Shown here piece by piece: positions 2,366 through 23,061 of a stretch of 27,090 bases of DNA; within the stretch, counting starts at the first letter, position 1; the number at the start of each line of letters is the position of its first letter. The notes beneath the pieces are model-generated. The model ran no database searches. It saw nothing but the letters and a program-made list of their open reading frames with translations, and was not told the DNA's origin. The DNA comes from a virus, in IMG/VR virus record IMGVR_UViG_3300000117_000186, positions 9-27,098 of that record. One strand, given 5' to 3'. A program made the position numbers and the translations under genes.

Positions 2366-4034
2366 AACAAAAGAAAAGGAAATTGAGCCACAGTTAAAAA
2401 ACTTTAAAAACTTTTTATACCTTGCATGGAAACATCTTAATCTTCCTGACCCCACCCCAATACAATATGACATTGCAGACTACCTACAGAATGGTTCTAA
2501 ACGATTAGTTATAGAAGCTTTTCGTGGAGTAGGTAAATCTTGGATTACATCTGCATTCGTATGTCACCAATTATTATTAAATCCTCAAAGAAACATACTT
2601 GTTGTTTCAGCATCTAAAAATCGTGCCGATGATTTTAGTACCTTTACACAAAGACTAATAGGTGAAATGCCTATACTAAAACATTTAGCACCTAGAGATG
2701 ACCAAAGACATTCTAAAGTAAGTTTTGATGTAGCCCCGGCAAGAGCCTCTCACGCTCCTTCCGTTAAATCATTAGGCGTTACATCGCAGCTAACTGGGTC
2801 AAGAGCAGATTTAATTATTGCCGATGACGTTGAGTCAGCAAACAATTCTCAAACACAACTAATGAGAGACAGGCTTAGTGAAACTATTAAAGAGTTTGAC
2901 GCAATTATAAAGCCTGAAGTAGGGCGTATTGTGTTCCTTGGAACTCCACAAACTGAAATGTCGTTATATAACAACTTAGAAGAACGTGGGTTTAAAACTA
3001 GAATATGGACTGCATTATACCCTAATAAAATACAAAAGGTTAACTTAGGTGATAAACTTGCACCTAAAATATTAGAACAATTAGCAGAAGATAAAAAATT
3101 AGAAGGTAAACCTACAGACCCTAAAAGATTTGACGAAGTAGACCTAATGGAACGTCAAGCGTCTTATGGTCGTAGTGGTTTTGCTCTTCAATTTATGCTT
3201 GATACAACATTAAGTGATTTAGAAAAATACCCTCTTAAATTAAATGATTTAATATGCGTATCTGGTGTAGAGTCTTGGAAAGAAGCACCGGCAAAGATAC
3301 AATGGGCTGGTGGTATTGAACAAATTAAAGCTATAGACAGTGAATTACCAAATGTAGGACTTAAAGGTGACTATTGGGTAGCCCCAATGCACATGAGTAA
3401 CGAATATGCTCCATTTGAAGGTTCTGTTATGTCTATTGACCCTTCAGGACGTGGACAAGACAGAACAGGCTATGCAATAGTTAAAATGTTGCATGGTGTT
3501 CTGTATTTAACCGCTGCTGGTGGATTAAAAGGTGGATATAGTGACCAAACTCTAGAACGATTAAGTCAAATGGCAAAAGATAATGACGTCAACTATGTTG
3601 TTATCGAAAGTAACTTTGGTGACGGTATGGCTACACAATTATTAAAGCCTATAATGTCTAGAATACACCCTTGTAGCATTGAAGAGGTAAGACACTCTAA
3701 ACAGAAGGAATTACGTATTATAGACACTCTAGAGCCTGTTATGAACCAGCATAGGCTAGTTATTAGCCAAGAATTAGTCAAAGAAGACTTTAGAGATGAA
3801 GTAGACCACCAATTGTTTAAACAAATGACTAGAATAACAAAAGATAAAGGTTCTTTAAGGCATGATGACGCTTTAGACGCATTATCTATTGCTGTAGGTT
3901 ATTGGGTAGAAAGAATGGATAGAGACCAAGTATTAGCCTTTAATGAGCATAAGAATGACCTTTTACAGAAAGATTTAGATAGATTTATGGAAAATGCTCT
4001 CGGTAGAAAGCACCAAGATACAAGGTGGTTTTAA
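2328..4034 (+). CDS. terL: Terminase large subunit (T7 gp19-like, DNA maturase B)
   Basis: The 568-aa product is close in length to T7 gp19 (586). The ATPase half shows Walker A FRGVGKSW with Lys70, a VVSASKNRADDFS segment, QLTGSRADLIIADDVES as Walker B (Asp166/Asp167) and the coupling motif GTPQTEMSLY. The nuclease half has SIDPSGRGQDRTGY (Asp371), VVIESNFGDGM (Glu427) and HDDALDALS (Asp513 to Asp517), the expected RNase H-like metal ligands. It packages DNA into proheads and cuts concatemers. ATG 2328 is chosen; ATG 2349 is a possible later start. The gene ends one base before the phage promoter at 4035, much as T7 gene 19 is followed by the right-end promoter phiOR. Confidence 0.95.
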   Translation: MKKKTPVMVGRTKTKEKEIEPQLKNFKNFLYLAWKHLNLPDPTPIQYDIADYLQNGSKRLVIEAFRGVGKSWITSAFVCHQLLLNPQRNILVVSASKNRADDFSTFTQRLIGEMPILKHLAPRDDQRHSKVSFDVAPARASHAPSVKSLGVTSQLTGSRADLIIADDVESANNSQTQLMRDRLSETIKEFDAIIKPEVGRIVFLGTPQTEMSLYNNLEERGFKTRIWTALYPNKIQKVNLGDKLAPKILEQLAEDKKLEGKPTDPKRFDEVDLMERQASYGRSGFALQFMLDTTLSDLEKYPLKLNDLICVSGVESWKEAPAKIQWAGGIEQIKAIDSELPNVGLKGDYWVAPMHMSNEYAPFEGSVMSIDPSGRGQDRTGYAIVKMLHGVLYLTAAGGLKGGYSDQTLERLSQMAKDNDVNYVVIESNFGDGMATQLLKPIMSRIHPCSIEEVRHSKQKELRIIDTLEPVMNQHRLVISQELVKEDFRDEVDHQLFKQMTRITKDKGSLRHDDALDALSIAVGYWVERMDRDQVLAFNEHKNDLLQKDLDRFMENALGRKHQDTRWF

Positions 4035-4055
4035 TAGTACCCCTATATGAACCAA
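4035..4055 (+). promoter_or_regulatory. Candidate phage RNA polymerase promoter P1 (right end)
   Basis: TAGTACCCCTATATGAACCA recurs at 11146 and 13656, with a variant at 23041, each time just upstream of a gene block and on the coding strand. The TATAT-G junction is analogous to the TATA-GGG of T7 promoters, placing the start near G4049. The start region AACC-AAGAGGGG-GGTT could form a short 5' hairpin on the transcript. Position after terL matches T7 phiOR. Confidence 0.75.
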
Positions 4056-9576: not shown

Positions 9577-9652
9577 TGTCCGATACTTGGTTACTGTTAG
9601 TTTATTAATTTACAGCAGTATAAAGGTTCATAAATTAGACAAGGAAGTAGAA

Positions 9653-9979
9653 ATGAATGTAAATGCTATTAAACTTTTGAATGCAATAGAAGAATTTCGG
9701 AAGTTTGACGCTGATATACAAAGTCAAACTATCGCAGTTTTTCTTTATGTAGGCTTACACGCTAAAAGCGAGGGTGTGCCAATGACCGTTATAGCTGAAA
9801 AATTAGCTATGGCTCAATCAAGCGTTAGCAGAAATGTTAGTTTACTCTCAAAGTATTCTTGGAGACAAAAAGAAGGATTAAATTTTTTAGTCGCTGAAGA
9901 AGACCCATTTGAGCGTAGACGAAAGTTAGTTAAATTAACTAACAGAGGAAAGAGATTGTATGAGACTATCTCTCAATAA
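9653..9979 (+). CDS. MarR-like winged-helix transcriptional regulator
   Basis: I choose ATG 9653, preceded by AAGGAAG, over the TTG at 9587. The 108-aa product has a helical N-terminus (INAIEEFRKFDADIQSQTIAV-like), a helix-turn-helix at about 40-65 (MTVIAEKLAMAQSSVSRNVS) and a wing ending DPFERRRKLVKLTNRGKRL, the classic MarR signature D-x-RR-K-x-x-LT-x-x-G. MarR proteins bind short palindromes as dimers and repress nearby genes. Position directly before the integrase suggests a role in the lysis-lysogeny choice. The gene ends 20 bp inside the integrase ORF. Confidence 0.75.
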   Translation: MNVNAIKLLNAIEEFRKFDADIQSQTIAVFLYVGLHAKSEGVPMTVIAEKLAMAQSSVSRNVSLLSKYSWRQKEGLNFLVAEEDPFERRRKLVKLTNRGKRLYETISQ

Positions 9980-10922
9980 CACTTTAACATATTTGAAAGG
10001 GGGTGAATTAGTAGGTATGAGACACAATCCAAAAGAACTTGGGCAAGTCTTTAAGCAAGTTAAATCTTTGCAATGGGATAATGGCAAAGATGATGTTGTT
10101 GTAGGACGAGCCAAGTATATTGTTGAATATTTTGGTGAAGACTTTTTTATCAATGACATTGATGAAGGGGCGATAGACGGTCTAATGGCTGACTTAAATA
10201 AAAAGAATATAAGTAACGCCACTAAGAATAGATACTTGTCTGCTCTGAGTACTATGATAACTTTTTGTCAAAGACGTTATAGTATATATAAATTAGAGCG
10301 AAGACCTTTCATAAATTGGTATAAAGAACCAAAGCATGAGTTAAGATATGTAACTGAAGCTGAAGAGCAGCAGATTATTAAAATTCTTAATTCTTGGGAA
10401 TTGCATTACAGAGACGATAGAGATTTTTATATTCTCTTATTAGATACTGGAATGCGATTGAATGAGTTGAGGACTCTCCGAGTAAAAGATTGTTTTAAAG
10501 GCTATATAACTTTGTATGACACTAAAAACAATCAACCTAGGGGCGTACCTTTAACTTCTAGGAGTCAAGAAATAGTCAATCGTTTTACAGAAAATAAAAA
10601 TCCTAACGAATGCTTATTTCAACATTTTGCTTTTTGGAGACCTGACACTACGTTTAGGAAACTTCGAAAAGCAATGGGTCTTGAAGGGGATAAAAGATTT
10701 ACCCTTCATAGCTTTAGACGAACATTGGCGTGTAGACTTCTAAATAAAGAAGTACCTCACAAAGTTGTTCAACAATGGCTAGGACATTCTGATGTTAGAA
10801 TGGTGGAGCGATACGCAACAGTACTTAGTACTACACTGTCTAAATTTGTGAATGTTTTAGAGAAATCCACTAATGGGTTAGAGCCAACGGATATGCAAAA
10901 ACCGTTGGGTAAAAATCACTAG
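9960..10922 (+). CDS. int: Tyrosine-family site-specific integrase
   Basis: The 320-aa product has a SAM-like core-binding domain (about 45-115, SNATKNRYLSALSTM) and a complete catalytic domain: Arg166 in LDTGMRLNEL, Lys189 in DTKNNQ, His250-x-x-Arg253 in TLHSFRRTL, His276 in WLGHSD and nucleophile Tyr285 in VERYATV. It would integrate the genome at the tRNA-derived attP just downstream. ATG 9960 has AGAGGAAAGAG before it; ATG 10017 after GGGGGTGA is a credible shorter start. The 3' end contains hairpins (10864-10879, and CCAACGG/CCGTTGG at 10884-10908), which could tune mRNA stability. Confidence 0.93.
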   Translation: MRLSLNNTLTYLKGGELVGMRHNPKELGQVFKQVKSLQWDNGKDDVVVGRAKYIVEYFGEDFFINDIDEGAIDGLMADLNKKNISNATKNRYLSALSTMITFCQRRYSIYKLERRPFINWYKEPKHELRYVTEAEEQQIIKILNSWELHYRDDRDFYILLLDTGMRLNELRTLRVKDCFKGYITLYDTKNNQPRGVPLTSRSQEIVNRFTENKNPNECLFQHFAFWRPDTTFRKLRKAMGLEGDKRFTLHSFRRTLACRLLNKEVPHKVVQQWLGHSDVRMVERYATVLSTTLSKFVNVLEKSTNGLEPTDMQKPLGKNH

Positions 10923-10938
10923 TGGGTTAATTTTTTTT
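10884..10938 (+). terminator. Hairpins and T-tract at the end of int
   Basis: CCAACGG (10884-10890) pairs with CCGTTGG (10902-10908) over 11 nt. A weaker CAC-TA-GTG based stem (10917-10924) is followed by eight T (10931-10938). The strong stem is too far from the T-run for a textbook terminator, so the exact stop signal is uncertain. Confidence 0.4.
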
Positions 10939-10955
10939 GGATTTGTTGTTAGTTT

Positions 10956-10961
10956 TACTAT
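10956..10961 (+). promoter_or_regulatory. Possible -10 box supplying a promoter for the rebuilt tRNA
   Basis: TACTAT stands 24 bp before the 5' end of the tRNA-like core, with only T-rich sequence at -35. After integration this phage DNA would lie upstream of the reconstituted host tRNA and would need to drive it. The box is weak on its own. Confidence 0.3.
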
Positions 10962-10984
10962 AGAACCATGGGAATGATAACCAA

Positions 10985-11026
10985 GGAGAGATGGGTGAGT
11001 GGCTTAAACCACAGGTTTGCTAAACC
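10985..11026 (+). other. attP: attP core: 5' half of a tRNA-Ser(GCU)-like sequence
   Basis: These 42 bases read as acceptor strand GGAGAGA, T8, D-arm GGT...ACC with GAGTGGCTTAA loop, anticodon stem CAGGT, loop TTGCTAA (anticodon GCT at 11019-11021) and the first three bases ACC of the 3' anticodon stem. After that, pairing fails (AT instead of TG) and no T-arm follows, so it is not a whole tRNA gene. Integrases of this family recombine at tRNA genes, and cyanophage P-SSP7 of the same group is known to carry a tRNA match next to int. The crossover should lie in the anticodon region. Confidence 0.8.
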
Positions 11027-11037
11027 ATTTCTTCTTA

Positions 11038-11069
11038 CAATCCACCATAGGATTGATTAGGCATTTTTT
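11038..11069 (+). terminator. Terminator-like hairpin between attP and RNA polymerase
   Basis: CAATCC (11038-11043) and GGATTG (11050-11055) form a stem over ACCATA, and six T follow at 11064-11069 after an 8-base gap. TAGG/CCTA around the T-run gives a second small stem. In a prophage it could stop read-through from the host tRNA promoter into the polymerase gene. Confidence 0.45.
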
Positions 11070-11126
11070 CCTAGTTTTACGGTAACTAACAACAATCCAA
11101 AAGTACATTAAACTTAGGTACTGAAC

Positions 11127-11142
11127 AATCCACTTATGGATT
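11127..11142 (+). repeat. AATCCA-TGGATT hairpin abutting promoter P2
   Basis: AATCCA-CTTA-TGGATT is one of a family of similar hairpins (also at 10864-10879, 11038-11055 and 13638-13653). Here and at 13638 the hairpin directly precedes a phage promoter. Confidence 0.6.
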
Positions 11143-11145
11143 AAT

Positions 11146-11166
11146 TAGTACCCCTATATGAACCAA
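11146..11166 (+). promoter_or_regulatory. Candidate phage RNA polymerase promoter P2
   Basis: TAGTACCCCTATATGAACCA, identical to P1, 35 bp before the start codon of the RNA polymerase gene. The early transcript again begins with AACC-AAGGG-GGTT, a potential 5' hairpin. Confidence 0.78.
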
Positions 11167-11201
11167 GGGGGTTACTAACGCCCTCTATAGAAGGAGTATA
11201 A

Positions 11202-13634
11202 ATGTTACCATTTGAATATTTAAGGGAACAATTAGAACTAGAAAAAGACATGAGAGAACGAGGTATTAATCGTTTTAACAAAAGGGTCACTGACCACAAA
11301 CAAAGGGGCGAGGAGAGTTTTGCTAACTATGGAAAGACCCTATTAGCAAATTCAATACAGCCTTTATCAGACGCCATACATAAGTACGTAGAAGAGGGTG
11401 AACAGACAAAGGGGGTAGTACCTATAGCTAGGAAGCTTTTAGGTCTCATAGAGCCTAATATTGCTGCATTAGTCACTGCTAAATCAGTTATTAATTCTAT
11501 CACTATTTCCCGGAAGTTAACAAGTGCAGCAATTAATGTTGCAAGTAAAATAGAAGACGAGACGGCACTACGATTATTTGAGGAGTCAAATCCTGAACAC
11601 TATGGAATTGTTAAAGCTGACCTAGATAAGAGGTCATTTGGTTATCAATATAAAAGAAGGAAGCTTAGAGAGTCAGCCCAAAAAAATAATATTGAGTGGA
11701 CTCAATGGACTAGGGGCGAAAAGGTACACGTAGGTTACAAGCTAATAGAACTTATGTGTGTCTCAACTGGGCTATCTAAAATTGAAATGTTGCCTAAAAG
11801 AAAACGCCTTGAAAGAACTTTATTAGCAACAGATGAAACATTACGTTGGATTAATAGTCGTAATGATTTCTTAGAGGTTCTGGCCCCAGAATACTTTCCA
11901 ACAATAGTACCACCTAGAATGTGGGAAGAAGGAAAGGCTCAAGGTGGTGGCTATTACTCAAGACATATAAAACCCTTGGCATTAGTAAAATATCATAATC
12001 GAAAAAACCTAAAGAATTTAGAAGATGTGAAAATGCCGATTGTTTATAAGGCAGTTAACGCACAACAAAATACACCATATAAAATTAATCATTTTATTTT
12101 TAATGTTTTAAAGAAAGCATGGGATAAAAATATATCTATTGGTGGTTTACCTAAAGCAGAGTTAGAAGAGATACCTTCTAAACCACATGACATTGAAACA
12201 AATGCCGAGGCTAGGAAAAAGTATAGACAAGAAGCTGTTATAGTTCACACAGAAAATGCTAGACAAAAATCTAAAAGATTATTGTTTGCTAAAGTTATGT
12301 GGATTGCTGAAATGTTTTTAGATAAAGTTTTTTACCATTGCCATACATTAGATTTTAGGTCACGTTGTTACCAAGTTACAAATTATCTCAACGGACAAGG
12401 AGTTGACTTTGCAAAAGCATTACATCTTTTTGGAACTGGTAAAAAAATTACCGAAGAAAATAATGGGGCGTATTGGTTAGCAGTTACCGGGGCTGGACTT
12501 TATGGAATTGACAAAGTTACAAGAGACGAGCAAGTGCAATGGGTCAATGAAAACTTTGATGTCTTTAAAGAAATGCAAGAAGACCCATACACAAATAGAG
12601 AATGGGAAAAAGCTGATAAGCCTTTTCAATTCTTAGCTTGGTGTAATGAATGGGTGCAGTTTCAAGAACATGGTTACGGATATGAAAGTAGTTTTATCTG
12701 TTCTCAAGACGGTTCATGTAATGGTATTCAACACTACGCAGCAATTCTAAAACATAGAGGTACTGCTGAAGCTGTTAATCTAAGTAACAGTGACGTTCCA
12801 CAAGATGTTTATACAGTTGTTAAAGACAAAGGTATTGAAAATTTAAAGAACATGACTGACAGTCCATTTGCAAAACTTTGGCTAGACTATGGAGTTAAAC
12901 GCTCAACAGTTAAGCGTCCTATTATGACAAGTCCTTATGGCTCTACTAGATATTCTTGTAGTGATTTTGTTGATGAAAATTTAGTCAAAAGAAAAGACGC
13001 TGGAGAGGAACACCCATTTGGAAGTGGTAAGTTAGCTTTTGAAGCGTGTTCGTTTATGGCTGGAGTAATATGGGACAGCATGGGTGAGGTTTTATCAGCA
13101 CCAAGGCAAGGAATGGATTATCTTAAAAAGAGTGCAAGTATTCTTGCTAAGAATGGTCACCCTATTGTTTGGTATAATCCTGTAGGATTTCCTGTCATAC
13201 AAGATTACCCGGAATTTAAGTCAATGAGAGTTAAGACAAAACTTTTTGGTGAAGTAATTAAACCAAGAATAAATGTTGAAACAGAAAAACTATCAGTACT
13301 TAAAGCGAGTAACGGACTTCCACCTAACTTTATCCATGCACAAGATTCAGCACACATGATGTTAACTGTTTCTAACGCTTACGATAAAGGTCTTACACAT
13401 TTTTGTAATGTGCATGATAGTTTTGGTACACTTGCTGCTGACAGCCAAGTACTTGCTGAAACAATAAGAGAGTCGTTTGTTGAAATGTATTCAAAGAGTT
13501 GTCCCTTGGAAGATTTTAAGGAAACAATTAAGCCAATACTAAATGACAAACAAAAAAGTAAACTTCCTGAAGTTCCTGAAAAAGGTGACTTCAATATTGA
13601 GGAAGTTTTAAAGAGCGAATTTTTCTTCGCTTAA
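11202..13634 (+). CDS. T7-like single-subunit DNA-directed RNA polymerase
   Basis: The 810-aa product (T7: 883) has the T7 landmarks: LDFRSRCYQVTNYLNGQGVD, SQDGSCNGIQHY with catalytic Asp503 (T7 Asp537), RSTVKRPIMTSPYG with Lys571 and Tyr579 (T7 Lys631/Tyr639), PPNFIHAQDSAHM and VHDSFGT with catalytic Asp739 (T7 Asp812). The C-terminus EFFFA resembles the aromatic foot FAFA of T7. The start follows AGAAGGAG. It would transcribe the middle and late genes from the repeated TAGTACCC promoters. It has its own such promoter (P2) and hairpins before it, so it is probably autocatalytic once triggered. It lies just beyond attP. Confidence 0.97.
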   Translation: MLPFEYLREQLELEKDMRERGINRFNKRVTDHKQRGEESFANYGKTLLANSIQPLSDAIHKYVEEGEQTKGVVPIARKLLGLIEPNIAALVTAKSVINSITISRKLTSAAINVASKIEDETALRLFEESNPEHYGIVKADLDKRSFGYQYKRRKLRESAQKNNIEWTQWTRGEKVHVGYKLIELMCVSTGLSKIEMLPKRKRLERTLLATDETLRWINSRNDFLEVLAPEYFPTIVPPRMWEEGKAQGGGYYSRHIKPLALVKYHNRKNLKNLEDVKMPIVYKAVNAQQNTPYKINHFIFNVLKKAWDKNISIGGLPKAELEEIPSKPHDIETNAEARKKYRQEAVIVHTENARQKSKRLLFAKVMWIAEMFLDKVFYHCHTLDFRSRCYQVTNYLNGQGVDFAKALHLFGTGKKITEENNGAYWLAVTGAGLYGIDKVTRDEQVQWVNENFDVFKEMQEDPYTNREWEKADKPFQFLAWCNEWVQFQEHGYGYESSFICSQDGSCNGIQHYAAILKHRGTAEAVNLSNSDVPQDVYTVVKDKGIENLKNMTDSPFAKLWLDYGVKRSTVKRPIMTSPYGSTRYSCSDFVDENLVKRKDAGEEHPFGSGKLAFEACSFMAGVIWDSMGEVLSAPRQGMDYLKKSASILAKNGHPIVWYNPVGFPVIQDYPEFKSMRVKTKLFGEVIKPRINVETEKLSVLKASNGLPPNFIHAQDSAHMMLTVSNAYDKGLTHFCNVHDSFGTLAADSQVLAETIRESFVEMYSKSCPLEDFKETIKPILNDKQKSKLPEVPEKGDFNIEEVLKSEFFFA

Positions 13635-13653: not shown

Positions 13654-13655
13654 AA

Positions 13656-13676
13656 TAGTACCCCTATATGAACCAA
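13656..13676 (+). promoter_or_regulatory. Candidate phage RNA polymerase promoter P3 (replication genes)
   Basis: A third exact copy of TAGTACCCCTATATGAACCA, 12 bp before the 33-aa ORF that leads into SSB. It should drive SSB, endonuclease I and possibly genes beyond the terminator at 14826. Confidence 0.78.
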
Positions 13677-23039: not shown

Positions 23040-23040
23040 T

Positions 23041-23061
23041 TAGTACCCATATATGAAGGAA
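23041..23061 (+). promoter_or_regulatory. Candidate phage RNA polymerase promoter P4 (structural genes)
   Basis: TAGTACCCATATATGAAGGA differs from P1-P3 at only three positions (C to A in the core, CC to GG after the start). It lies after nrdB and 6 bp before the first late gene. The changed start region doubles as the ribosome binding site (GAAGGAAA). Confidence 0.7.

Follow-up and report, generated by a model that had tools for sequence, protein, structure and literature searches.

A tRNA-Ser(GCT) 5' half as the core of a T7-like pelagiphage attachment site, and upstream replacement at the same tRNA gene in SAR11

The analysed window is a DNA stretch of 27,090 nucleotides, nearly the whole of a 27,098-base virus record. 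By its sequence, the region between the integrase and RNA polymerase genes of this window holds the attP of a pelagiphage of temperate type (Autographiviridae). We are confident of the overall reading, in which the phage is T7-like, the attP core is the 5' half of tRNA-Ser(GCT), strands would be exchanged in the anticodon loop, the rebuilt tRNA would be transcribed from phage DNA, and the turnover of such elements would replace the DNA upstream of the host gene. As an attP it belongs to a known kind but takes a rare form. We did not find tRNA-Ser(GCT) reported as an integration target in the accessible literature, and its use as such appears to be new.

The phage and its attachment site

The window holds a T7-like gene set with RNA polymerase (RNAP), ssb protein, primase/helicase, DNA polymerase, ribonucleotide reductase and head-tail connector. 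The T7-like RNAP, primase/helicase and DNA polymerase, together with an integrase gene (int) and a regulator upstream of RNAP, place it among the integrase-bearing T7-like pelagiphages (Autographiviridae). Its nearest annotated relatives are Pelagibacter phages of the same family, with identical gene order. The tyrosine recombinase gene adjoins the attP, with 12 bp between the integrase end and the left arm, and the whole attP fits within the 279 bases that separate int from RNAP. In the integrase, the catalytic residues R166, K189, H250, R253 and H276 are invariant, and Y285 is invariant in A1.

9587..9979, + strand: transcriptional regulator (phrog_9665), counterpart of the MarR family-annotated genes in HTVC120P/134P/309P
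9960..10922, + strand: tyrosine integrase, 320 aa (PF00589, 97 bits)
10935..10954, + strand: left inverted arm (P side), candidate integrase arm site by inverted-repeat score; overlaps the -35/spacer of a candidate promoter
10985..11026, + strand: attP core, nucleotides 1-42 of SAR11 tRNA-Ser(GCT), exact match in 79 SAR11 stretches
11017..11023, + strand: probable 7-bp overlap (crossover) TTGCTAA, corresponding to the anticodon loop; anticodon GCT at 11019-11021
11084..11102, - strand: right inverted arm (P' side), candidate integrase arm site on the same basis as the left arm
11202..13634, + strand: T7-like RNA polymerase (phrog_414, E 4.9e-243), in an order shared with relatives

The core sequence occurs only once in the window. 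In 77 of the 79 SAR11 stretches that match it, ARAGORN found full tRNA-Ser(gct) genes of 92 nt, while the same program found no complete tRNA in the window. An exact match of 10985-11026 in a marine host had been named beforehand as a check, and the SAR11 tRNA-Ser(GCT) genes provide it. Identity begins at mature-tRNA nucleotide 1, with the host leader absent. It ends three bases into the 3' anticodon stem, just where the original prediction had placed the end of the core; the host then continues with TGCGAAGG and the window with ATTTCTTC. The same prediction had read the 42 bp as a tRNA-Ser(GCU) 5' half because of its fold. The assignment stands by exact identity; the tRNA-half-like fold does not carry it, since a 45-nt piece alone gave z = -0.71 as against z = -4.0 for the full host gene. 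The core is therefore identified by sequence identity and not by folding. An exact match to this tRNA further identifies the host of this uncultured phage as SAR11.

Because the core holds nucleotides 1-42 only, it differs from a canonical 3'-half attP, and by its geometry the element DNA would sit upstream of the rebuilt tRNA. The earlier statement that tRNA-targeting phages usually carry the 3' half, and only rarely the 5' half, is in line with the literature (PMC10865867, PMC8371274). Mycobacteriophage attP cores include the tRNA 3' half (PMC10865867), and in bacteria the rebuilt tRNA remains on its original promoter with very few exceptions (PMC8371274). In the host loci that we translated (genes read from sequence), tRNA-Ser(GCT) is followed directly by dapA and smpB. 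Each of 77 genomes has one full tRNA-Ser(GCT), and five carry extra 5' halves (≤3 mismatches).

The two arms are inverted copies of each other that differ by one inserted base (TTTTGGATTTGTTGTTAGTT and TTTTGGA-TTGTTGTTAGTT in the local alignment). None of 2000 dinucleotide shuffles of the region reached the score of this pair, which is the top such pair window-wide. The arms had been described as centred about 1.5 bp from the anticodon centre, and we measured a midpoint of 11018.5 against 11020. The symmetry stressed at that point is present in all 22 relatives measured. The midpoint precedes the anticodon centre by 1 to 1.5 bp in every tRNA-Ser/tRNA-Arg type and by 3 bp in the Cys-like types. 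When left and right arms were cross-compared between phages, a phage's own pair was mostly favoured, with exceptions. Since all arms share ancestry, this co-variation is modest evidence only, and the geometry of the arms is the stronger point.

The attP and attL versions are identical at least to GCTAA, and several differ directly after it, such as L090 (GCTAATCC) and the attL of the occupied site L123 (GCTAATTACT). Divergence at this position puts the exchange of strands no later than the end of the anticodon loop. The natural reading of the crossover region is a 7-bp overlap TTGCTAA, which we consider probable.

Could the 42 bp be no attP at all but a tRNA fragment that has decayed or has a regulatory role, such as a tRNA-derived RNA or a decoy? 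Such a fragment could be transcribed, and integration of the window phage was unseen in 110 genomes. However, the 42 bp adjoin int and are flanked by symmetric arms, and in relatives a different tRNA contributes the 5' half found in this position. We give this explanation hardly any credence.

Related phages and the question of stable integration

The HTVC019P-type/Foussvirus pelagiphages (HTVC120P, HTVC134P, HTVC309P, S46-C10 and Bylgja; Autographiviridae) resemble the window phage in the order MarR-like regulator-integrase-attP-RNAP, in the symmetric arms and in having a tRNA 5' half as core. The integrase-attP-RNAP part of this order is common to HTVC120P/134P/309P, Bylgja and the IMG/VR relatives. 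They differ from the window phage in the core, which is tRNA-Arg(TCT) or a reverse tRNA-Cys-like sequence, and in the integrase, which is 57-58% or 35% identical. The tRNA-Arg(TCT) 5' half stands at the same place in all five named phages and in nearly all IMG/VR relatives that keep an attP, and in 5 SAR11 genomes it completes to a full tRNA-Arg(TCT) gene. Integration as such is known in the family to which the window phage belongs.

HTVC201P and HTVC121P (L087, L089) have an apparent tRNA-Cys 5' half in reverse orientation between int and RNAP, so that integration would leave the prophage inverted with respect to the tRNA. The inferred half of HTVC201P/121P was absent from 110 SAR11 genomes (≤3 mismatches). 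Integration at tRNA-Cys is reported for a relative, HTVC022P, in PMC12753301, which cites Zhao 2019. In L119, L120, L121 and L122, int lies directly beside RNAP and the whole attP region is gone; these are perhaps phages that turned obligately lytic. The attP core of L098 is degenerate. The other relatives keep a complete 5' half, with L098 and HTVC019P as the only clear exceptions.

The 42 bp of tRNA-Ser also lie next to an integrase gene in two IMG/VR contigs (L091, 4696-4737; L092, 321-362). BLASTP found no significant similarity between the integrase of L091/L092 and that of the window, so tRNA-Ser serves as a target for integrases that are unrelated or only very distantly related. Judged from these sequences, this is convergent use of one target.

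Among 110 Pelagibacteraceae genomes we found no prophage with an integrase of the window-phage family, only distant integrases. This absence fits a reading in which the site is used transiently, through rare integration in an essentially lytic infection, and the supply of a promoter to a lysogen is irrelevant. The T7-like cyanophages offer a precedent. P-SSP7 and S-TIP37 resemble the window phage in being T7-like and in having an integrase followed by a tRNA-matching attP, and differ in host and in tRNA (tRNA-Leu). Their integration is proven and requires both integrase and attP, and they integrate without stable lysogeny (PMC8776855), so the integration of the window phage could be rare or transient as well. 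HTVC022P is mostly lytic (PMC12753301), and the close relatives L119-L122 retain int after loss of the attP. On the other hand, recombination should need the anticodon stem-loop only, whereas the match begins exactly at mature nucleotide 1, as is expected if the rebuilt tRNA must work. The retention of the complete 5' half by nearly all relatives likewise argues against a transient site. We regard such use as possible, though somewhat doubtful.

Occupied sites and upstream turnover in SAR11

Five SAR11 genomes had occupied tRNA-Ser(GCT) sites, all with elements other than the window phage (two satellite-like elements and three islands). In 5/5 the orphan 5' half lay upstream of the full tRNA and shared its strand, at a spacing of 2.2 to 10.9 kb, with the rebuilt tRNA at the far end in each. 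A search for mobile-element junctions at this tRNA had been proposed, and it returned the predicted 5'-half geometry in these 5 genomes. An intact integrase directly follows attL in two sites, and one site holds an integrase remnant. The satellite-like elements L123 (G025:C7; 10.9 kb) and L127 (G001:C13; 7.4 kb) have a 333-aa integrase directly after attL and also encode an excisionase-like protein and a primase; their integrases are 70% identical to each other. The island L124 (G005:C7) has a truncated integrase, and its orphan half carries two mismatches; L125 (G003:C2) and L126 are small islands without integrase. We also observed transporter/cell-surface-like genes or three pilin-like genes in the islands L124 and L125. 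The tRNA-Ser site may be a SAR11 hypervariable region.

Since attL retains the old upstream DNA, the replacement can be read directly at these sites. In 4/5 the attL upstream matched the upstream of an intact gene in another genome (40-58 of 58 bases), and the attR upstream differed. In L126 the attL upstream scores 58/58 against the DNA before the intact tRNA-Ser of L065, and the attR upstream belongs to another family. L123, L124 and L125 follow the same pattern; the attL upstream of L127 matched no other genome compared. We also compared host upstreams with the phage P arm and obtained a best score of 17/58, against a 99% shuffle level of 15 and over 77 comparisons, with none convincing.

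The same replacement is visible across the population. We compared the 58 bases from -70 to -13 before tRNA-Ser(GCT) in 77 genomes, and they fell into about 18 families. When the families were placed on a dapA-smpB tree built from 69 loci, their label changed 39 times, where shuffled labels gave a mean of 41 and the minimum possible is 17. This near-random scatter was unchanged at three other clustering thresholds. Control tRNAs were tested in 30 of these genomes. Related upstream pairs made up 100% for both tRNA-Pro(TGG) and tRNA-His(GTG), and 17-29% for tRNA-Ser(GCT). The better control is tRNA-Pro, because the tRNA-His upstream partly overlaps an open frame. Close relatives (94-98% in dapA) often had nothing in common upstream of tRNA-Ser and nearly everything upstream of tRNA-Pro; G018 and G056 (98% in dapA), for example, score 9/58 at the former and 50/58 at the latter.

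Homologous recombination or general island turnover could also make the DNA upstream of tRNA-Ser(GCT) hypervariable without any 5'-half integration. Hypervariable regions with RNA genes at their borders are known in SAR11 (PMC2217521), the clade recombines much (PMC7542561), and some islands at the site (L125, L126) have no integrase. However, the breakpoint is sharp at the 5' side of the tRNA, and nothing comparable was seen at tRNA-Pro. Moreover, five genomes kept the orphan 5' half that site-specific integration should leave behind, and in two of them an integrase lies beside attL. We therefore think this explanation unlikely. The DNA upstream of tRNA-Ser(GCT) is swapped very often, apparently by mobile elements of 5'-half design, whose turnover is the likely reason for the frequent replacement.

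Predicted course of integration and the promoters around attP

In the proposed mechanism, the integrase would bind both inverted arms and exchange strands inside the 7-bp anticodon loop. At one end, the integrated phage would have the host promoter, the orphan 5' half, the P' arm and the RNAP gene; at the other, the integrase, the P arm and the rebuilt complete tRNA-Ser. The expected attL reads host upstream, 5' half, ATTTCTTCTTACAATCC, and the expected attR reads P arm, full tRNA-Ser. Since the phage supplies the 5' half, the rebuilt single-copy tRNA would stand behind phage DNA and be transcribed from there. The archaeal plasmid pTN3 behaves in the way that we infer for the window phage (PMC5495485). 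In pTN3-like elements (tRNA-Leu) the rebuilt tRNA is likewise parted from its original promoter (PMC5495485, PMC8371274); these elements are archaeal, and their suicidal integrase is split on integration, whereas the int of the window stays whole. Mycobacteriophages with tRNA attP (3' half, 30-45 bp) and tRNA-dependent lysogeny phages also recombine the anticodon-loop region and rebuild or replace the tRNA (PMC10865867). They use the 3' half, which keeps the host promoter, or a whole tRNA gene, in contrast to the 5' half only of the window phage.

Several candidate control elements surround the attP.

10864..10880, + strand: dyad AATCCA-N4-TGGRTT, operator-like (1)
10913..10929, + strand: operator-like dyad (2), weaker
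10936..10964, + strand: weak promoter-like TTTGGA-17-TATAGA, best match in the arm (7/12), candidate
11039..11054, + strand: operator-like dyad (3)
11127..11142, + strand: operator-like dyad (4), directly before the repeat at 11145; present in L142
11145..11166, + strand: 22-bp intergenic repeat TWAGTACCCCTATATGAACCAA before RNAP, candidate phage-RNAP promoter

The candidate TTTGGA-17-TATAGA, which would drive the rebuilt tRNA, ends 20 nt before the tRNA start, and the L090 version has TATAAA. Scans of 10800-11300, left arm included, for consensus sigma-70 promoters and for terminators found nothing. The promoter scan says little, because by simple hexamer counting the real host tRNA upstreams also scored no better than shuffles. 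The motif ACTATAG at 10957 was considered as a T7-like promoter and dropped, as it did not recur systematically before genes.

The 22-bp repeat is probably the own promoter of the phage T7-like RNA polymerase. It has 4 copies in the window (4034-4055, 11145-11166, 13655-13676 and 23040-23061), all on the + strand and each just before a gene, and 0 in shuffles. Near-identical copies precede RNAP and ssb in HTVC120P and HTVC309P.

Dyads of the form AATCCA-N4-TGGATT occur at 10864, 11039, 11127 and 13638 (after RNAP), with the weaker one at 10913. The window has other weaker hits, and shuffles also give about six at the loose threshold, so the support for the dyads lies in their clustering and recurrence: the near-perfect ones cluster around the attP and are found again in L142, while HTVC120P and HTVC309P have partial matches. 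They are candidate operators of the MarR-like regulator or candidate excision-factor sites.

As the attP separates int from RNAP, integration would alter what stands upstream of RNAP, and the RNAP gene would come to sit behind the host tRNA promoter. We tentatively propose that integration may be a two-way promoter exchange. The single-copy tRNA-Ser(GCT) would pass to promoters from successive elements (T7-like phages, satellites and islands with unrelated integrases), the phage RNAP gene would fall under the host tRNA promoter, and phage control would be rewired, the crossover being flanked on either side by operator-like dyads.

The rare 5'-half mode is common to an entire group of marine phages, and elements unrelated to them use it at this tRNA in a bacterium that is among the most abundant in the ocean. 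There, the promoter region before an apparently single-copy tRNA gene turns over almost independently of the gene that follows. It can now be tested directly whether mobile elements control how an essential host tRNA is expressed, and whether integration places a phage polymerase gene under a host tRNA promoter.
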